Below are positions 4,592-21,930 of a stretch of 28,008 nucleotides of DNA, piece by piece. Where the stretch lies: the IMG/VR virus record IMGVR_UViG_3300048927_000179, positions 1-28,008 of that record; one strand, given 5' to 3'. Positions within the stretch are counted from its first letter, which is position 1; each line of letters opens with the position of its first letter. The notes below the pieces were generated by a model. That model had not been told where the DNA came from, made no database searches, and saw only the letters and a program-made list of their open reading frames with translations. Made by a program: the position numbers and the translations under genes. This DNA is from a virus.

Positions 4592-5995
4592 TTACGCGCC
4601 GCCGCCAGCGTCCGGAGCGACCGTATTGGTCCAGGAGACACCGGTGAGGTAGGCAACGGCCTGCGGCCGGCGCTTCTTCCAGTTGACGAAGCGTTCGGCT
4701 CGGATCGCGAGCTGGTTCGTCTGGAACATGCTCTGGATCTGCGCCATCGTGGGCGTGGCGGTCGCATCGTCGTCCATGATGATGGTGGCCTCACGGCTGA
4801 CATCGATGGTGACAACGCCGTCGTCGGCCAGGTAAATCTCACTGGCGAAGGCCAGGATGAACATGCCGGACGGAACGTAGTTGGAAACAACCAGCGGAAC
4901 GCCATCGATGTCGCCGCCCGTCATCGAGACATTCGGGAACTCCCGCGCCATCAGCGGGTTGCGCAGGCCGGACAGCTGCCGGGCGGTCGCACTGTCGGTG
5001 ATGTATACCGCACTGGACACAGGCAGGTTGGTATCGTCGGCCGTGGCCCAGAGCGCCTGGATGTCGGCGTAGACGTCACCGGTCGCGACGATCGGCGTCA
5101 CTCCGTTGGTGATCGAGGCGGGCGACAGGCCTGCACCGGTGGCCGCTGCCTTGGCGGGGTCCACGAAGTCTTCGTCCATGCGCTCGATCACCGCATCCGA
5201 CAGATCGTCGCGCACCAGAATCTGGATCGACGGGTCGGCGAAGCGCGCCAGTTCTTCGGTGATCACCGAGATACCCGCGATCTTGGCCCACTTCAGCTCG
5301 GCCGCGTCATAGCCCGACTTGGTGACCGGCTTGCGGAAGCCCTCGCCGACCCACTGCGCACGCCCCTTTGCGCTCTTGCCCGGGATGCGGACATTGAACG
5401 GAACGCGGCGCAGGCCGGGCACATTGCCCTGGCCGAGCTGGCCAATGATCGTGCGCGGGCGCAGGAAGTCAACGAACTCGCTCGACAGGTTCTGGTACTG
5501 CACCAGACTGCCGGCCCACGACGGATCGGTGGTGTTGCCTGCGGCGACCGCCGCTTTCATGATCTCGTTCAGCCGCACGTCGTCGCGGAACACGTTGTCC
5601 GAGAAGGCCTTGGCACTCGAAACGTCACCCTTGCCCGCGTACATCGCCATTGCGAAACGGGCGAAGCCGATGCCCTGCTCTTCGTTTTTGCGGCTGTGGA
5701 TCAGGGCCGGGCCCTTGCCGGCGGCACGCTTCGGATCGGAGGCCGAACCCTGCTCCTGGACGATCTGCGCGGCCGGAACGGCCGACTTCGCCTGAACGGC
5801 CTGCAGGCGACTCAGGCGATCGATGTCACCGTCCAGCGCCTTGATCTGGACATCCAGCTCGTCGAACTCTTCCTGTTCAGCGGTGTTGAACGAACGGCCT
5901 TCGTCCATCGACTTCTGGGCGATCTCGCCCAGCTTTTTCTGGTGCGCTTCACGGGTCGCGCGGAGCGCTTCCAGCTGTTCTGCAATGGTTTTCAT
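4592..5995 (-). CDS. Major capsid protein, HK97 fold
   Basis: A 467-residue protein. Residues 1-85 are a helical, coiled-coil delta domain (EQLEALRATREAHQKKLGEI...EFDELDVQIKALDGDIDRL), followed by a linker where the prohead protease would cut (about 100-115). The HK97 fold follows, with 'NTTDPSWAGSLVQYQNLSSEFVDFLRPRTI', 'WVGEGFRKPVTKSGYDAAELKWAKIAGISVITEELAR' and the C-terminal 'QLAIRAERFVNWKKRRPQAVAYLTGV'. The start at 5995 has an AAGGA about eight bases upstream; the reading frame is open further upstream but that part is the protease shadow. The delta domain implies no separate scaffold gene. Confidence 0.95.
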   Translation of the reverse strand: MKTIAEQLEALRATREAHQKKLGEIAQKSMDEGRSFNTAEQEEFDELDVQIKALDGDIDRLSRLQAVQAKSAVPAAQIVQEQGSASDPKRAAGKGPALIHSRKNEEQGIGFARFAMAMYAGKGDVSSAKAFSDNVFRDDVRLNEIMKAAVAAGNTTDPSWAGSLVQYQNLSSEFVDFLRPRTIIGQLGQGNVPGLRRVPFNVRIPGKSAKGRAQWVGEGFRKPVTKSGYDAAELKWAKIAGISVITEELARFADPSIQILVRDDLSDAVIERMDEDFVDPAKAAATGAGLSPASITNGVTPIVATGDVYADIQALWATADDTNLPVSSAVYITDSATARQLSGLRNPLMAREFPNVSMTGGDIDGVPLVVSNYVPSGMFILAFASEIYLADDGVVTIDVSREATIIMDDDATATPTMAQIQSMFQTNQLAIRAERFVNWKKRRPQAVAYLTGVSWTNTVAPDAGGGA

Positions 5996-6025
5996 TGGGA
6001 TTTTCCTTGATGGCGCAGCCGTTCG

Positions 6026-6081
6026 GCCCGGGTTCCACGCCGGGCAGTGCCTGCAGTATTGGGAGGCGGGTTCCACCCCGC
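6026..6081 (-). other. Two tandem stem-loops in the protease-capsid gap
   Basis: The 107-base gap between protease stop and capsid start holds two GC-rich hairpins. One is at 6026-6045 (6-bp stem) and one at 6066-6081 (5-bp stem). Both loops contain the same sequence, and the ten bases CGGGTTCCAC occur in both (6029-6038 and 6067-6076). In the mRNA the loops read GUGGAA. They have no T-run, so they do not look like terminators; an RNA processing or stability role is possible but only inferred. Confidence 0.55.
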
Positions 6082-6102
6082 GGGGCCGTCTGGCCCGGTG
6101 CT

Positions 6103-6675
6103 TCAGTGCAGCAGCTTCACCGCGGCGCCGGCCGGTCGCTCGACCCGGACCGCCTGGCGCTGGATGAGGGGCACGCCGTAGTTCACCGAGCGGCGTCCGC
6201 CGGCGGTGTCCATGGCCTTGATGGTCTGGATGGTCGCCGCGGCGTTGGCCGGGATGGTGACCAGGGAGAGCTCGTAGATCTCGGTTTCGGTGAACCGGAT
6301 GCCGCCACCGTCCATGTAGCTGTACTCCAGCGCGCGGAAGCCGATCGAGACCCCGCGCACCAGCTTTTCCCTCACCGACTGCCAGGCGAGGTCGCACAGG
6401 TCCTTCAGCGCGCCGGGAGTGGTGATGTTGGCGACACTGGCCTCGAAGGGGATGCCCTTGGCTGTCGGCTTGCCGAACTTGACGATTCCGACCGGGCTAT
6501 CGTGGCGGTGCTGCCACAGCAGCGGCAGCTCGGAGGCAAACTTTGCCCCCAGCGGCTCGACGATATCGCCGTAACGATCCGCCTCCGGCGTGGTCGCCCA
6601 GCCGGTGATGATTCGCTGGTCGTCGTCGTAGGACTTGACCTCCAACACGCTGTAAGCGCGATTCTCGTTATTCAT
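6103..6675 (-). CDS. HK97-family prohead protease
   Basis: A 190-residue serine protease of the S78 family that cleaves capsid delta domains and itself during head maturation. Visible motifs are the N-terminal strand 'RIITGWATTPEADRYGDIVEP', the catalytic His region 'LPLLWQHRHDSPVGIV' (His56 or His58), the catalytic Ser in 'VRGVSIGFRALEY' (Ser110) and the conserved 'EIYELSLVTIPANAAATI'. The start overlaps the TerL stop by four bases. About 107 bases separate it from the capsid gene it serves. Confidence 0.94.
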   Translation of the reverse strand: MNNENRAYSVLEVKSYDDDQRIITGWATTPEADRYGDIVEPLGAKFASELPLLWQHRHDSPVGIVKFGKPTAKGIPFEASVANITTPGALKDLCDLAWQSVREKLVRGVSIGFRALEYSYMDGGGIRFTETEIYELSLVTIPANAAATIQTIKAMDTAGGRRSVNYGVPLIQRQAVRVERPAGAAVKLLH

Positions 6676-8426
6676 CGGTTTCCACCCAGGGTCATTAGGA
6701 CGAGCTTCTTCTTGGGTTCTTCGGCGACCGGAATGCTGATACCGACGGCCATCAGTAATGCAGTCATGTCATCGATCTTGTCCGGAGAGCGGCGCTTGTC
6801 CGGAGCCATATTCAGATTCACGTCCTGACGGGCGATCAAGTTGGCTGCACACCAGGCGAGCACAGGGTCACCGTCGTGGACTAGGCGCTTGCCTATATAG
6901 GCGCGCTCCAGCTCAGTCATCGCCGGGTGATACGACTTCGGTCCCTGGATGAACTCGACCAGTGGAACCTCCGCCGCCACCAACCTGCTGACCATCTCCG
7001 TAGCGTTCCACCGATCGAAGGCCAGCGACTGCAGGTTGAATTTCTCCCGAACGTCGAGAATTGCCCTTTCGATCACCGCGTAATCGGTGACCTCGCCCTC
7101 GGTCTGTTCTATGAAGCCAGCTGCCACCCAGCCGGCGTAGGGAACAGTGCCCCGCTCGGTCCGCTGCATCACAGCCGATTCCGGAACCCATCGACGGCCC
7201 CACGTGATGATCTTGTCGTCCACCCTCCACACCAGCCGTAGCGATGTGAGATCTCGTGTGCTCGCCAGATCGAGGCCACCCCAGCAAGGTGCATCTCTCA
7301 GCGCGTCAAGGTCCACCTCTCCAGCGCACGCATTCCACTTGGGCAACAGGATGAAGCCGTTGGCCGCGGCTGCCGGCCGGTTCAGCCTCTTGATCTGGAA
7401 CTCCGCGAGCTTTGAAGGCATTGCCTTCGCCTCGACGGACTCCTTGCGAATCGCAGCCAGCAAATGGGGGTTCACGTCCATCAACGGGTTGGCTTTGTGC
7501 CATGCCTTCTCGTCGAAGTCCGGGTCATCCTTGTCGACGGCGAAGAAGATCGCCAGGAAGTGATCCGCCGTCTCGCCGAACACCCCCTCGAGCAACTGGG
7601 TCGCGAACTGCCGGATCTCTGACCATGGCCCAGGGTTCGCGTATCCCTCTGTAGTCGTGAAGAGCCACAAGGGGTTACGCCTGGCGCCGGCAGCCGACTG
7701 TAGAACGTTCAGCAGGTCTGGCGTCTTATGAGCATGGATCTCATCCAGCCCGACATGGGAGGGATTCAACCCGTCCTGCGTGCTGGCCTTTGCATTGATC
7801 GGCTTGAACGTTGCCCCGGTCTCGACCCGGCTTATCGCGTTGGCCCAGCATTCGAGCCCGTACGCATCGCGCAGGTCCGCCATCTTCTCCGCCATCCGCT
7901 TGGCGACATTGAAAATGATTCGCGCCTGGCTGCCGGTGGTGGCCGCCGAGATTACCTGTGCGCCCTCTTCATCCTCGCAGCACTGGCAGTACAGAAGAAT
8001 CGCCGCTGAAAGCGTGGACTTGGCGTTCTTGCGCGCGACGGCGAATAGCGCCGAGGTGAAGCGCCGGGTGCCATCTGCCTTTCGGAACCCGAACAACTGG
8101 ACAACGAACCACACGTGAGACGGGTGCAACCGAATTTCCGGCGTGTCCCACTTGCCCTCAACGTGCGGCAGAAGCTCAATCCACCCACAAGCGTGATTCG
8201 CATGCTCCCTGGAGAACCAGAACGGCGCGCCCTTTTTCTTCGCGCGCTTCAGGTCTTCCAAAAACCGCTTTGCCGCCAGCTTGATCAGCCGCCCAAATCG
8301 GCCGGACCTATCAGACGAAGCAGCTCGCGCGTAAGCGATCGCTACGTCAACGTAATCACTTGGCGGCGTGGGCTCTCGGCTTGCCGAGCGCGGTGAACGC
8401 GTTCCCGGGCTTTTCCGCGTCGCCAT
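6672..8426 (-). CDS. terL: Terminase large subunit
   Basis: This 584-residue packaging motor has a degenerate Walker A 'ARKNAKST' (131-138), a Walker B 'VGLDEI' (225-230) followed by HAH, the coupling motif 'LFTTTEG' (about 255-261), and a nuclease domain opening with 'WGGLDLASTRDLT' (Asp386), with later acidic residues including the 'KIDDMTALLMAVG' end. It is of the Terminase_1 (HK97-like) type, translocating DNA into the prohead and cutting concatemers. The start at 8426 overlaps TerS by 71 bases, an unusually long overlap, but no later in-frame start precedes the conserved 'DYVDVAIAYARAA'. Confidence 0.95.
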   Translation of the reverse strand: MATRKSPGTRSPRSASREPTPPSDYVDVAIAYARAASSDRSGRFGRLIKLAAKRFLEDLKRAKKKGAPFWFSREHANHACGWIELLPHVEGKWDTPEIRLHPSHVWFVVQLFGFRKADGTRRFTSALFAVARKNAKSTLSAAILLYCQCCEDEEGAQVISAATTGSQARIIFNVAKRMAEKMADLRDAYGLECWANAISRVETGATFKPINAKASTQDGLNPSHVGLDEIHAHKTPDLLNVLQSAAGARRNPLWLFTTTEGYANPGPWSEIRQFATQLLEGVFGETADHFLAIFFAVDKDDPDFDEKAWHKANPLMDVNPHLLAAIRKESVEAKAMPSKLAEFQIKRLNRPAAAANGFILLPKWNACAGEVDLDALRDAPCWGGLDLASTRDLTSLRLVWRVDDKIITWGRRWVPESAVMQRTERGTVPYAGWVAAGFIEQTEGEVTDYAVIERAILDVREKFNLQSLAFDRWNATEMVSRLVAAEVPLVEFIQGPKSYHPAMTELERAYIGKRLVHDGDPVLAWCAANLIARQDVNLNMAPDKRRSPDKIDDMTALLMAVGISIPVAEEPKKKLVLMTLGGNR

Positions 8427-14397: not shown

Positions 14398-14555
14398 CAG
14401 CACACCTCCAGGTAGATCAGGAAGACCCACGAGCCAACAATGGCCGCCCATAGCGGTGCGTCGGCGAAGGCAGCCAGCCCTACTGCGGCGATCATCGCCA
14501 TCAACAGACGTACGCCGCTCTTCAGAAACCACACGATCAGCCGCTCCACGGTCAC
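14397..14555 (-). CDS. Small two-helix membrane protein
   Basis: A 52-residue protein read from a GTG at 14555 that overlaps the DHH gene's stop as GTGA; its own stop overlaps the next start as TGATG. It has two hydrophobic segments, 'LLMAMIAAVGLAAFA' and 'APLWAAIVGSWVFLIYLEVC', with a short charged N-terminus (MTVERLIVWFLKSG). Tight coupling on both sides is the main evidence that it is real. The function is unknown. Confidence 0.6.
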   Translation of the reverse strand: MTVERLIVWFLKSGVRLLMAMIAAVGLAAFADAPLWAAIVGSWVFLIYLEVC

Positions 14556-15481
14556 GCCCTCGCCAGTTCGTGGTCGCGCGGGACCGTGAACCCTGCAGCG
14601 CGCGCATGCCCGCCGCCCCCGTACAGCTTGGCGACCTCGCTCACGTCCACGCCCTGGTCGGTCGACCGCAGGCTGAAGACCCGGCCGCCGTCCTTGTCGT
14701 AGTAGCAGGCCGCGAACGGCTTGCCCTTCGCCATCAGGTGACCCGCGTCGCTGGCCAGGGTGTACGGCAGACTCGCCACCGGCACCTCGTAGTGCCCGAT
14801 CACCATCTGGCGCTTCGCCACCTTCACCAGCTCGGCCACGTCCTTGTGGTGCTTGCGCTCGATCGCCACGCCCTGGGCGCGCAGCGTCTCCATTGGCGTT
14901 TCCATCAGCAGGTCCCACACGTCGAATTCGTAGGGGTAGCTGAAGACCGCCGCCTGGATCTCGCGCGTGCCCGGCAGCGCGAAGCGCCACAGGTCCCGGT
15001 CTTCCACGTGGTCGATCAGCTCCGGGCGGGGCACGCCGGGGTGGAAGAAGTCCCACGCGATCCCCGCGCCGCTGCGGTCCATGTCGAACAGCGCGTAGAT
15101 CATTGCCTTGCGGATGCCCTCGCACTTGTCCTGCTCAACCCACCCTTGGAAGTGACGCCAGGTCGGGTCGGCATCGACGTCGAAGCCTTCAATGCGAACA
15201 ACGGTCAGCTGGTCGTCAGCGGTCAAGGGATTGGCTGGCATATCAGCCTCGGCGCTCTTGTGGTGGTCCAGCACCAGGATCGACCGGGCTACCAGTTGCA
15301 GGTCCAGCATCACGCGCGGCGGATAGCAGAAGTCCACCAGCACGAGGTCGCGCCCTTCGGCCGGCGGCGGCGGTTCACCATGGACGGCGGCGTGGAAGTC
15401 GCATTCCATCGCCTGGCGCACGGCCCATGCCGCGGTGAAGCCGTCGGCGCAGTTGGCGTGGTAGATGACCAGTGGTTTCAT
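14552..15481 (-). CDS. DHH/DHHA1-family phosphoesterase
   Basis: This 309-residue protein has the DHH catalytic signature: 'IYHANCADGFTAAW' (His8, Asp13), 'LVLVDFCYP' (Asp50), 'ILVLDHHKSAEA' (Asp72-His73-His74) and a later 'ALFDMDRSGAGIAWDFFHP...LIDHVEDRDLW' metal-site aspartate. It ends with a DHHA1 nucleic-acid/nucleotide site 'GGGGHARAAGF' (288-298). Relatives such as NrnA degrade short RNAs or cyclic dinucleotides using Mn2+. In a phage early operon it may recycle nucleotides or remove signalling nucleotides; neither is shown. It overlaps both neighbours by four bases. Confidence 0.88.
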   Translation of the reverse strand: MKPLVIYHANCADGFTAAWAVRQAMECDFHAAVHGEPPPPAEGRDLVLVDFCYPPRVMLDLQLVARSILVLDHHKSAEADMPANPLTADDQLTVVRIEGFDVDADPTWRHFQGWVEQDKCEGIRKAMIYALFDMDRSGAGIAWDFFHPGVPRPELIDHVEDRDLWRFALPGTREIQAAVFSYPYEFDVWDLLMETPMETLRAQGVAIERKHHKDVAELVKVAKRQMVIGHYEVPVASLPYTLASDAGHLMAKGKPFAACYYDKDGGRVFSLRSTDQGVDVSEVAKLYGGGGHARAAGFTVPRDHELARA

Positions 15482-19058: not shown

Positions 19059-19553
19059 TCAGGCAGCCTCCACGGTGATGATTCGGTCTGCGTCCGGGTC
19101 GTGCGGCGCCTCTTGGGCGACCGGCTGCTGTTCCTGCACACCCAGCAGCCTCAGAACCTGCGGCAGCGCCGGCACGCTCTGCTCTTCCGGCCAGGCCTCA
19201 ACCTGCTCAACGGGCAGCTGCAGCAGCTTCGCCAGGGGCGCGTCGGTCTTGAAACCGAACTTGGCCCGCAGCGCGCGCTTGCTCATGCGGCTATCGACCA
19301 GCGGGCCGATCACAGCGCGCGGCACATCCTGCATAGGCTTCGGACCGAAGACAGCTGGAAGCAACTCGAAGCGACTCACCGCGCCACCTGTTGCCAGATC
19401 GATCTGAATCGCCCGCTCGGCCTTGATGGCGGTAGTTCCGTTCTCCCATTGGGAGACAAGGCCCTGAGTGGCAGGCGTACCCGTTTCCGTCAGCAAGGCG
19501 GCGAACGCCGACTGCGACAGGCCCTTCTCTTTTCGGTAGGTGGCGATGTCCAT
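19059..19553 (-). CDS. cro: Cro-like repressor
   Basis: A 164-residue protein with a helix-turn-helix, 'MDIATYRKEKGLSQSAFAALLTETGTPATQGLVSQWENGTTAIKAERAIQID' (about residues 8-45), of the Cro/CI/XRE type, plus a longer C-terminal part than lambda Cro. It is divergent from CI and first in the PR operon. The start is placed at 19553 because the PR promoter's -10 ends seven bases before that A; an upstream ATG at 19577 would lie inside the promoter and operator. The mRNA would thus be leaderless. Confidence 0.8.
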   Translation of the reverse strand: MDIATYRKEKGLSQSAFAALLTETGTPATQGLVSQWENGTTAIKAERAIQIDLATGGAVSRFELLPAVFGPKPMQDVPRAVIGPLVDSRMSKRALRAKFGFKTDAPLAKLLQLPVEQVEAWPEEQSVPALPQVLRLLGVQEQQPVAQEAPHDPDADRIITVEAA

Positions 19554-19559
19554 GAGTCG

Positions 19560-19588
19560 ATTATGAGTGGCGCTCATATCGAGGTCAA
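19560..19588 (-). promoter_or_regulatory. PR promoter for the cro/replication operon
   Basis: On the minus strand, TTGACC (19588-19583), a 17-bp spacer and CATAAT (19565-19560) form a near-consensus sigma70 promoter. Operator O1 fills the spacer and O2 touches the -35 box. The expected start site is about seven bases past the -10, at the A of the cro ATG. Confidence 0.85.
19563..19577. promoter_or_regulatory. Operator O1 (right), inside PR
   Basis: The 15-bp near-palindrome ATGAGTGGCGCTCAT lies between the -35 and -10 of PR. It shares 13 of 15 positions, read on the other strand, with an operator at 21914-21928 in the second early promoter. This is probably bound by CI and Cro. Confidence 0.8.
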
Positions 19589-19601
19589 TAGTGCCGCTAT
19601 T
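19587..19601. promoter_or_regulatory. Operator O2 (right), next to the PR -35
   Basis: The 15-bp AATAGTGCCGCTATT shares the core AGTGsCGCT with O1. Its centre is 24 bp from O1's, and it overlaps the outer edge of the PR -35. The second early promoter has the same arrangement. Confidence 0.75.
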
Positions 19602-19621
19602 GGCAAATCATGAACGCATTA

Positions 19622-19636
19622 ATTAGCGTTCCTCAT
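19622..19636. promoter_or_regulatory. Operator O3, directly before the CI start
   Basis: ATTAGCGTTCCTCAT matches O1 at 10 of 15 positions and ends at the base before the CI ATG (19637). It is a weaker copy, as expected for a site through which CI would limit its own synthesis. The assignment is less certain than O1 and O2. Confidence 0.55.
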
Positions 19637-20359
19637 ATGGAAGCATCACGCAAAGCGAAGCCCACCCCAGCCGATATCGCCGCCGCAGCGCGGCTGAAAG
19701 CGGCCTGGGCTGATAAGGCGCGTTCACTGGGAATCACCCAAGAGAAGCTGGCACACGAACTGGGCATCACCCAAGGCGCGGTCAGCCAGTACCTCAATGG
19801 CAAGATCCCGATGAACTACCGGACTCTCAAGGTGTTCGCGGCATCCCTAGGAATTGAGGACACGGATATCCGGAACGATCTGCCAGAGCAGCAGTACAGC
19901 TCCCCTGCTCCGCCCGACGACGCTTGGGATGACATCGTCGGGTATTCCCAGGCCGCAGGCTTGGGCGCGGGTGCCGAGGCTGCCGAGTACGCGGAAACGC
20001 ACAGCCTGAAGTTCAAGAAGACCAGCCTGCGCCGTCGCGGGATCTACGGTCGCGACCTTGCCGTCTATTACGGCAAGGGCGACAGCATGGAGCCCACCAT
20101 CAAGGACGGGGACGCAATCCTGTTCGACACCTCAGACACCCGGGTGGCAGATGGTCTGCTCTACGTGATCCAGGTCGATGGCATGGCCCGCCCCGAGTAC
20201 TTCGTGAAGCGCGCCATGGTGCTTGACACCGGCGTCTACTTCCAAAGCGACAACCCGCATGGCGACCACCAGTGGCGTAAGCCAAAGCCCATGGTCTCCA
20301 AGCGGCACCCGATCACGGTCATTGGCCGTGTCCACTGGATTGGCGGATGGGCTGACTAA
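19637..20359 (+). CDS. cI: CI-type repressor with S24 autocleavage domain
   Basis: A 240-residue repressor. The HTH spans about residues 31-55 (LGITQEKLAHELGITQGAVSQYLNGK). The C-terminal LexA/S24 domain has Ser140 in 'GKGDSMEPTI', Lys181 in 'YFVKRAM' and a probable Ala107-Gly108 cleavage site in 'SQAAGLG'. It holds the lysogen and is lost on RecA-stimulated self-cleavage. The ATG at 19637 is preferred; an ATG at 19610 is possible. Neither has a ribosome site, so a leaderless mRNA is likely, as for lambda cI. A BstA-like gene follows 26 bases later on the same strand. Confidence 0.93.
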   Translation: MEASRKAKPTPADIAAAARLKAAWADKARSLGITQEKLAHELGITQGAVSQYLNGKIPMNYRTLKVFAASLGIEDTDIRNDLPEQQYSSPAPPDDAWDDIVGYSQAAGLGAGAEAAEYAETHSLKFKKTSLRRRGIYGRDLAVYYGKGDSMEPTIKDGDAILFDTSDTRVADGLLYVIQVDGMARPEYFVKRAMVLDTGVYFQSDNPHGDHQWRKPKPMVSKRHPITVIGRVHWIGGWAD

Positions 20360-20385
20360 GCACAACAAGGAGGGGCAAGATCGCC

Positions 20386-21330
20386 ATGAATAAAGGAAGT
20401 AAAAACAAAGAGTTAACTGCACATTTCCCGCCGAAGGTCGCCGACCCTCGACAAGGCCAGCTTAGCCTCGGGATTTCGAAGCAGATCGAGATCGATGGCG
20501 TGGGCATGGGCGTCCTTTCTGACGGAACGCCTTTCCTCACCGGGCGAGGGCTCGCAAGCCTTTGCGGTGTCACACATCGCGCCATTCAGGACATCTCCGA
20601 CGAGTGGACAGAAGATGTTCAGAAACCGCGTGTCACAGCTATTAAGGCCATCCTGCGTAAGCGAGGCATAGAGCGTGACACGGCATACGTTGCCATTACT
20701 CAGCGCGGCGGAACCTTCTTTGCCTATTCGGATGCAGTGTGCCTTGCCGTCCTCGAGTACTACGCTTTTGATGCCGGATCGAACATCAAACAGCAGGCTC
20801 AGTCGAATTTCCGTGAACTCGCTGGCCAAGCGCTACGTGACTTCATCTATGCCCAAGTAGGGTATGACCCTAATGCGTTAGTTCCCAATGCGTGGAAGAT
20901 CTTTCACGATCGAGTTTCATTGACCTACAGTGCTACCCCAAAGGGACACTTTGGGATATTCAAAGAAATCGCCGATATCATCGTCGCCTTGGGACAGGCA
21001 GGACTTCATATTGATCCGAGCTTCGTTCCTGACGGAAGCGTGGGAAAGCACTGGTCGACCCACTGGACCGCAATCGGTGGAGATGGGAAGTTCGGCAGCC
21101 GTCAGAGGTATGGCCATAATTTTCCAGAGTACTTTCCCCAAGCCGACTCCAATCCACAAGACGCCTGGTGCTATCCAAACGGCGCGCTCGGAGAGTTCAG
21201 GAGATGGATTGAAGACGATTACATTGGAAAGGGGAAATTTGGAAGGTACTTGGACTCAAAGGTAAAACAGAGATCTCTGCCCCCATCCTTCACTCAGCTT
21301 GCAATCGCCGCCCTATCTTCTAGCGAGTAG
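20386..21330 (+). CDS. bstA: BstA-like prophage-encoded abortive-infection protein
   Basis: A 314-residue protein resembling BstA of Salmonella prophage BTP1: 'EIDGVGMGVLSDGTPFLTGRGLASLCGV' (about 35-62, KilA-N-like DNA-binding region), 'YSDAVCLAVLEYYAFDAG', 'FRELAGQALRDFIYAQVGYDP', 'HDRVSL', 'FGIFKEIADIIVALGQAGL', 'VGKHWSTHW...YGHNFPEYFPQADSNPQDAWCYPNGALGEFRRWI' and 'KVKQRSLPPSFTQLAI'. BstA aborts infection by other phages by stopping phage DNA replication, and sits beside the repressor, as here. An AAGGAGG lies 12 bases before the ATG. GC content is visibly lower than in its neighbours. A terminator follows the stop. The match is from memory of family motifs. Confidence 0.82.
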   Translation: MNKGSKNKELTAHFPPKVADPRQGQLSLGISKQIEIDGVGMGVLSDGTPFLTGRGLASLCGVTHRAIQDISDEWTEDVQKPRVTAIKAILRKRGIERDTAYVAITQRGGTFFAYSDAVCLAVLEYYAFDAGSNIKQQAQSNFRELAGQALRDFIYAQVGYDPNALVPNAWKIFHDRVSLTYSATPKGHFGIFKEIADIIVALGQAGLHIDPSFVPDGSVGKHWSTHWTAIGGDGKFGSRQRYGHNFPEYFPQADSNPQDAWCYPNGALGEFRRWIEDDYIGKGKFGRYLDSKVKQRSLPPSFTQLAIAALSSSE

Positions 21331-21335
21331 TCATC

Positions 21336-21361
21336 AACCCCGCTCCGGCGGGGCTTTTTTA
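21336..21361 (+). terminator. Rho-independent terminator after the BstA-like gene
   Basis: A 6-bp GC stem (CCCCGC/GCGGGG, loop TCCG) is followed by a C and a run of T residues, a few bases past the stop codon. It closes the CI-BstA transcript. Confidence 0.9.
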
Positions 21362-21435
21362 TCGCTCTTTCACTTCGCCCTCGCTGCCTAACTCGCGCGC
21401 CACCTTGGTGTGTCTATGAAAATCACAGGTGAATA

Positions 21436-21822
21436 ATGATGTTGTGGATTGCTTTAAGAGCTGCTAGCACGGTGCTGATCTTTGCTGTTCCCGCCATGGC
21501 GGCACCTGTGACACCGACGACCACGGCGTTCGAGATCTCCTCTGTTGCTAGAGATGCAACGGCTGAAGAACTCGAAATCATCAAGGCCGGCCTCAAGGCG
21601 ACGCTCAAGGACCCCTATAGCGCAGTGGTAGAGAGCGCCCGGATCAAGGGCATTCGCTATTGTGCTGAGGTCAATGCCAAGAATTCCTTTGGCGGATACG
21701 TCGGTCCCCGGACGATGAGAGGAATGCTTGCACCGCTGGATGGCGGCCTGCGTGCAATTCCCAGCGCGCTAGACCCAAATGCGGGTGAGTTCAGGGACTG
21801 CAAGAAAGAAGGAATTTACTAA
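21436..21822 (+). CDS. Small secreted protein, probable cargo gene
   Basis: A 128-residue protein with a Sec-type signal peptide (basic ALRAA, hydrophobic STVLIFAVPAMA, cleavage after AMA at about residue 22). The mature part holds 'EIIKAGLKATLKDPYSAVVESARIKGIRYCAEVNAKNSFGGYVGPRTM', a pattern found in small periplasmic proteins and lipoproteins of unknown function. Two ATGs (21436 and 21439) follow an AGGTG. Lying alone between the BstA terminator and PL, it is a candidate lysogen-expressed moron. A surface or exclusion role is speculative. Confidence 0.65.
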   Translation: MMLWIALRAASTVLIFAVPAMAAPVTPTTTAFEISSVARDATAEELEIIKAGLKATLKDPYSAVVESARIKGIRYCAEVNAKNSFGGYVGPRTMRGMLAPLDGGLRAIPSALDPNAGEFRDCKKEGIY

Positions 21823-21888: not shown

Positions 21889-21903
21889 ATAAGCGCCCCT
21901 ATT
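21889..21903. promoter_or_regulatory. Operator O2 (left), next to the PL -35
   Basis: ATAAGCGCCCCTATT matches the right operator O2 (read on the other strand) at 11 of 15 positions and the left O1 at 12. It overlaps the start of the PL -35 box, the same geometry as O2 at PR. Confidence 0.72.
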
Positions 21904-21930
21904 GACTAGGGAGATTAGCGCCACTAATCT
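21902..21930 (+). promoter_or_regulatory. PL promoter for the plus-strand early operon
   Basis: TTGACT (21902-21907), a 17-bp spacer and TAATCT (21925-21930) form a sigma70-type promoter. An operator lies inside the spacer and another at the -35, mirroring PR. Transcription would start near 21937 and run into the genes from 21982 onward. Confidence 0.75.
21914..21928. promoter_or_regulatory. Operator O1 (left), inside PL
   Basis: The 15-bp palindrome ATTAGCGCCACTAAT differs from the reverse of the right operator O1 at only 2 of 15 positions. Its centre is 25 bp from the left O2, compared with 24 bp at PR. Confidence 0.8.

Follow-up and report, generated by a model that had tools for sequence, protein, structure and literature searches.

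A repeat–box–repeat DNA element around the start of bstA genes and its likely protein reader in a predicted prophage BstA–aba module

A homologue of bstA directly behind a phage repressor gene raises the question of how a prophage carrying a replication-blocking defence may be spared by its own weapon, and of which bases and residues decide the matter. BstA of the Salmonella prophage BTP1 halts phage DNA replication (Owen et al. 2021, PMC8585504). What spares the BTP1 prophage is aba, 63 bp of DNA reaching from -29 to +34 of bstA and bounded at both ends by CCCGCC direct repeats, in either of which a single base change abolishes immunity; the element works as DNA, in trans and at many copies, and is active in trans on plasmid DNA that is hardly transcribed (PMC8585504). 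E. coli and Klebsiella loci each have an aba of their own, and the determinants of aba specificity, the contact between BstA and aba and the way in which BstA is switched off were left open in the Discussion of that study (PMC8585504). The locus analysed here lies in a 28,008-bp IMG/VR virus record, referred to in its entirety as the window, the minus strand of which carries portal, head, terminase, spanin, replication-initiation and CII-like genes.

The gene in question (20386-21330, plus strand) has an ATG start and is intact and full length, encoding a protein of 314 amino acids in which every BstA motif quoted in the original prediction was found. The profile searches that had been proposed leave its identity in no doubt: the PADLOC BstA model matched with an E-value of 7.6e-117, spanning profile positions 3-288 of 292, phrog_6287 ('BstA abortive infection system, replication inhibitor') matched at 5e-93, and BTP1 BstA aligned by tblastn at 2e-77 with 46% identity over residues 21-298 (278 residues). 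Its best relatives among phage records are Pseudomonas phage vB_PaeS-D14H (60% identity), Salmonella phages and BTP1, and it is clearly a fresh member of an already known family. Pfam and NCBIfam models gave no match to the protein, including no Pfam match for a KilA-N-like N-terminal domain, and no PDB chain matched it by sequence; a scan of viral contigs using the exact peptide patterns of this single protein returned zero matches because such patterns are too strict. That the gene, although an ordinary BstA, is a decayed or silent copy appears quite unlikely. Its source is a 28-kb virus record, no promoter-like site was found immediately 5' of it, and its close relative L032 has lost the C-terminal half, but the intact reading frame, the nearly complete coverage of the profile and the retention of all of the family's invariant residues argue against decay.

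As first described, bstA begins 26 nt after the stop codon of a CI-type repressor gene on the same strand (19610-20359, plus strand; phrog_4, 9.1e-38), which is itself preceded by a divergent helix–turn–helix (HTH) regulator in the Cro position (19059-19577, minus strand; phrog_25161, 4.8e-46; phrog_35, 8.2e-10). An operator-like palindrome with a consensus near ATTAGNGCCNCTAAT occurs in five copies in an OR/OL layout, three between cro and cI (at 19563, 19587 and 19622, within 19563-19636) and two OL-like copies to the right of bstA (at 21889 and 21914, within 21889-21928); counted on both strands, the pattern has 13 matches in the window against 4.8 expected. The palindromes to the left and right thus place cI, bstA and a 128-aa ORF between OR-like and OL-like regions, and this stretch is the slot that holds rexAB in lambda, where abortive-infection genes likewise follow cI (PMC8585504). 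RexAB and BstA are not homologous. To our knowledge, no aba element has been recognized for RexAB. The terminator previously assigned to bstA is partly borne out: a GC-rich hairpin (21338-21353) with a T run does follow the stop codon (21338-21362, plus strand), and such sites number four against 2.8 expected from shuffles, which is not a clear enrichment. cI and bstA are likely to be cotranscribed and, by analogy with BTP1 (PMC8585504), bstA would be expressed in the lysogen and defend the host. The lower GC content noted for bstA was confirmed (52.8%, below the 60.9% of cI and the 64.5% of the window). The 128-aa ORF between bstA and the OL-like sites (21436-21822, plus strand) has an apparent signal peptide, matches solely PHROGs of unknown function and is a possible lysogenic-conversion gene. 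Elsewhere in the window, a DHH phosphoesterase (14552-15481, minus strand; phrog_4771, 4e-102) is a phage gene of an uncommon kind.

The comparison drew on about 165 bstA loci, taken from phages, viral contigs and genomes, and covered the 210 nt 5' of the conserved MGVLxDG codon (residue 41 in the window protein); 89 nonredundant clusters were scored for direct repeats at spacings of 20-120. A direct-repeat pair was found around the start of bstA, the two copies lying exactly 56 or 57 bp apart, with a sequence that differs from one locus to the next. Mean repeat scores reached 6.67 for 57 bp and 4.87 for 56 bp where the remaining spacings averaged 3.51 +/- 0.28, and a score of at least 6 was reached at 56/57 bp in 69 of the 89 loci compared with 4-13 loci at other pairs of spacings. 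The match belongs to the individual locus: swapping upstream and downstream halves between loci lowered the score from 7.61 to 3.64 +/- 0.15, the highest value among 500 swaps being 4.10. In a held-out set of 20 clusters fetched later, 57 bp again ranked first (12 of 20, against a mean of 1.96 at other spacings). Direct copies number exactly two, and neither third nor inverted copies were found at a fixed place near bstA. Roughly a quarter of the loci are without a pair of such strength, perhaps in some cases as a result of misjudged alignment or divergence. In BTP1 the minimal 63-bp aba starts 1 nt before copy 1 and finishes with copy 2.

Copy 2 lies approximately 70 nt 5' of the MGVL codon whether the start codon falls between the copies or before both, and the position of the element is therefore tied to the protein core and not to the start codon. 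A constraint from coding or ribosome binding, or a protein repeat of 19 residues, might also be thought to generate such a pair, since 57 bp corresponds to 19 codons and the reading frame includes both copies in some loci. However, 25 of 78 pairs are spaced by 56 bp, many loci have copy 1 outside the coding region and the match is lost when the halves are swapped. One control stretch within the gene also displayed a weak 57-bp peak (4.90), which may reflect conserved protein sequence 19 residues apart.

Between the repeats lies a constant box, AATCAAnnnGTTAG, offset by 25 nt from the beginning of the motif around copy 1. A box model trained on one clade scored +3.99 at mid-element in the other loci; the two flanks scored -2.34 and -4.19, and no shuffle exceeded -0.12. 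The BTP1 box, AATCAAATGGTTAA, overlaps the start codon, whereas that of the window is located within the coding region, and the box is therefore unlikely to act as a translation signal. A blind scan of DNA for any repeat pair accompanied by the box gave 156 matches away from known bstA starts, about as many as control spacings, and was rejected as a finder of new elements for being too noisy. The outer edge of the element was located using 138 pairs of related loci (70 loci), chosen by identity around copy 2 and not by identity at copy 1. Identity is approximately 0.35-0.59 before copy 1, rises to 0.84 at copy 1, is 0.64-0.80 in the interval separating the repeats and reaches 0.85-0.91 at copy 2, and the jump at copy 1 places the start of an apparent mobile unit at the outer repeat, coinciding with the start of the minimal BTP1 aba.

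The original prediction named the aba element near the start of bstA in BTP1, and at the window gene a repeat–box–repeat layout is indeed present, overlapping the bstA start. By the family rule and by analogy with the 63-bp BTP1 element (PMC8585504), the predicted self-immunity element extends over 20377-20442 (plus strand, as are its parts): copy 1, AAGATCGCC, immediately 5' of the ATG (20377-20385), the central box, AAACAAAGAGTTAA, identified with the box model (20403-20416), and copy 2, AAGGTCGCC, in codons 17-19 (20434-20442) and 57 bp from copy 1. The repeat pair is imperfect (8/9) and on its own weak, since 3.3% of 40-nt placements across the window yield an equally good pair by chance. 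The element is nevertheless made credible by the family rule, by the box, which falls exactly at +25 if the repeat is read as GATCGCC/GGTCGCC, and by its persistence in L032, where the DNA further upstream is unrelated. A third copy of AAGATCGCC at 7546-7554 (plus strand), opposite the terminase gene, is probably due to chance.

L032, from Lysobacteraceae bacterium P, is 77% identical to the window protein over residues 1-185 and has the same repeat pair at 57 bp, but differs in the loss of the C-terminal half and in its upstream gene neighbourhood: identity with the window is high from AAGATCGCC onward and further upstream there is no homology. This abrupt beginning of homology at the outer repeat, with unrelated DNA upstream in the closest relative, supports the previously suggested movement of bstA between phages. 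In L032 itself (5992-6560) bstA is truncated after approximately residue 185 with the repeat pair intact, beside apparent toxin–antitoxin genes, and is possibly an immunity-only remnant. The BTP1 locus resembles the window in its homologous protein, in the place of the gene directly after the repressor and in the repeats around the start (56 bp apart in BTP1, 57 bp in the window) with a central AT-rich box; on the other hand, the repeat core is TCGCC in the window and CCCGCC in BTP1, the window protein has a longer N-terminal leader that brings the box inside the coding region, and its probable host lies outside the Enterobacteria. In vB_PaeS-D14H (DBA08520, L002) the gene is likewise 3' of cI, but with one extra gene between the two and a different repeat, CCGCCAG, at 56 bp. 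Incomplete forms of the gene were also encountered. A frameshift splits bstA into two annotated ORFs in Salmonella phage S137 (L004, 3016-3938) and also in S135 and S107, with the 5' repeats retained; one alphaproteobacterial genome (G423) has four matches (L226-L229) to the C-terminal half of BstA only, and frames of 249-273 aa in genomes of the family Lysobacteraceae (L216-L221) match solely the C-terminal half of the BstA profile.

The structure prediction that had been called for, an AlphaFold2 model of the window protein (pLDDT 89), displays a winged HTH at residues of about 30-150, followed by a C-terminal domain (residues 160-314; 20863-21327, plus strand; pLDDT 91.2, pTM 0.86). The structures matched by the N-terminal domain include MerR-type DNA-binding domains, DdrC and Mbp1, at middling Z-scores of no more than 6.3, and no clear match to the C-terminal domain was found among solved structures. 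The second helix of the predicted HTH, VTHRAIQDISDE, is encoded by codons 62-73 (20569-20604, plus strand), with the modelled helix at residues 64-73. When differences between repeats were compared with differences in each protein column between loci, with overall protein distance removed, the top covarying columns were 64, 65, 66, 68 and 69, together with 17-19, a positive control because copy 2 itself encodes them. By a register-free measure, residues 63-73 had a mean partial correlation with repeat difference of 0.155 over all loci, 0.082 once the largest clade was left out and 0.099 when loci were thinned to less than 65% identity, compared with about 0 outside these residues and at most 0.054 in permutations. 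A residue-class statistic was swamped by clade structure and was dropped in favour of the distance-controlled tests; without the largest clade it left only residue 68 on top, with no significant helix-wide enrichment.

Pairing of repeats with helices illustrates this covariation and is no test of it, since the repeat register was fitted jointly with the helix. Twenty loci, the held-out Azospirillum plasmid locus L231 among them, combine GAAATC or a one-base variant with an NAHIG helix (mostly NAHIGTISSQW); GAACTC goes with N.HI.TI, CGATC with N[AP]RIVE, CACC mostly with DH, GGCC with R..IQ.IT, and CGCC with an H...Q helix in the window, BTP1, L002, L094 and L012. The helix HH[SK]VIQ and the repeat CCGCC are common to BTP1, L002 and L094, the last of which is just 45% identical elsewhere to L121, which is BTP1-like and has the BTP1 repeat. 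In the BTP1-like loci of E. coli JS01 (L234) and L156, CCCACC/ACCACC replaces CCCGCC in both copies and the helix also differs from that of BTP1 (DHTTLLPLT); the base changed is that whose G-to-T change kills BTP1 aba (PMC8585504). Overall, a link between the second HTH helix and the repeat sequence is likely. The repeats also differ among the BTP1, Klebsiella (L005) and E. coli (L007) loci, which would agree with immunity restricted to the cognate BstA.

Copies of the element also seem to occur without bstA. In a scan of viral contigs, pairs of AAGGAAATC at 57 bp were found at 44 sites, with the box at +25 in nine of them (four beside bstA, five not), compared with none of 38 sites at a control spacing of 60 bp. 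A second element pattern gave 41 matches. Fifteen of the 29 distinct matches in bstA-free stretches fitted the model of bstA-linked elements better than virtually all of 2000 shuffles (p < 0.001), as judged at columns outside the search pattern, and most of the remaining matches did not fit. One of the 15, L331, is in a record that carries bstA, reducing the number to 14; support for L244 is weaker (p 0.003). No BstA match was found in the whole records of the bstA-free elements, some of which are short fragments and others 39-66 kb, while the same search detected two bstA-bearing records. The commonest element type is that found in about 14 phage stretches without a recorded bstA.

The settings of these copies are diverse: within a primase gene but out of its frame (L254), at a helicase N-terminus (L329), in a lipoprotein-like ORF (L237), in a 429-aa ORF (L314) and in intergenic or stop-containing DNA (L266, L316, L319). 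In five further records (L261, L337, L318, L334 and L273) an aba-like element lies in frame in a family of small phage ORFs of 67-103 aa that start MIRDPSDGS(V/T)KEI, and the three members L261, L337 and L318 had no PHROG match. The flanks have no homology to bstA loci and, outside the small-ORF family, little to each other. The element reads KEI...EEI in one frame in several bstA-free loci, as a coding constraint would have it, but other copies are in different frames or contain stops in that frame (L254, L244, L316, L319); together with the variable spacing and the half-swaps, this makes an origin of the pair in coding or ribosome binding highly improbable.

The simplest reading of the bstA-free copies is that they are counterfeit aba, carried by phages to escape BstA, which makes them candidate anti-BstA decoys. 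They may instead be remnants of lost bstA genes, which is possible for L266 and unlikely for copies inside unrelated genes, or, alternatively, sites used by a different protein that shares this specificity. No BTP1-type aba without bstA was found in phage records, and among 385 alphaproteobacterial genomes the element pattern had a single match that looks like chance, the control spacing giving none.

Starting from the observed repeat layout, box, cassette boundary and helix–repeat covariation, the window locus is probably a prophage BstA–aba module. In the lysogen, BstA would be produced from the cI transcript, bind or sense the replicating DNA of an incoming phage and block its replication, as may be extrapolated from BTP1, a task that the C-terminal domain is presumed to perform. 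The predicted aba at 20377-20442 would shield the prophage from its own BstA, with the winged HTH reading both repeats directly through residues 64-69 of its second helix, so that the repeat sequence would be the key for the cognate BstA and the constant box would serve a step common to all BstAs. Sequestered on aba in an inactive state, BstA would be unable to stop the replication of aba-bearing DNA.

The repeats could instead form an autoregulatory operator for bstA transcription, bound by BstA or another repressor, with self-immunity as a by-product. Copy 1 is in the leader, often overlapping the ribosome-binding site or start codon, and BstA has a predicted DNA-binding domain. An operator is nonetheless an unlikely explanation, as immunity in BTP1 needs both repeats and is provided in trans by a plasmid-borne aba that is hardly transcribed (PMC8585504), the place of the element is fixed relative to the protein core and not to the start codon, and element-like sequences are present in bstA-free phage DNA.

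Beyond the module itself, a wider proposal seems to us evenly poised between right and wrong: aba would be an autonomous 'password' DNA, counterfeits of which, placed by bstA-free phages in replication genes, other genes or gaps, would silence the BstA of a resident prophage, with residues 64-69 reading the password and repeat and helix together defining matching groups. In the openly accessible papers searched, no description was found of a general aba anatomy, its probable reader or bstA-free copies, nor of a DNA-only counter-defence. The repeat–box–repeat rule pinpoints aba in new loci from sequence and singles out the bases and the protein helix that most probably determine aba specificity, while the element copies in bstA-free phages point to a counter-defence that may consist of DNA only.
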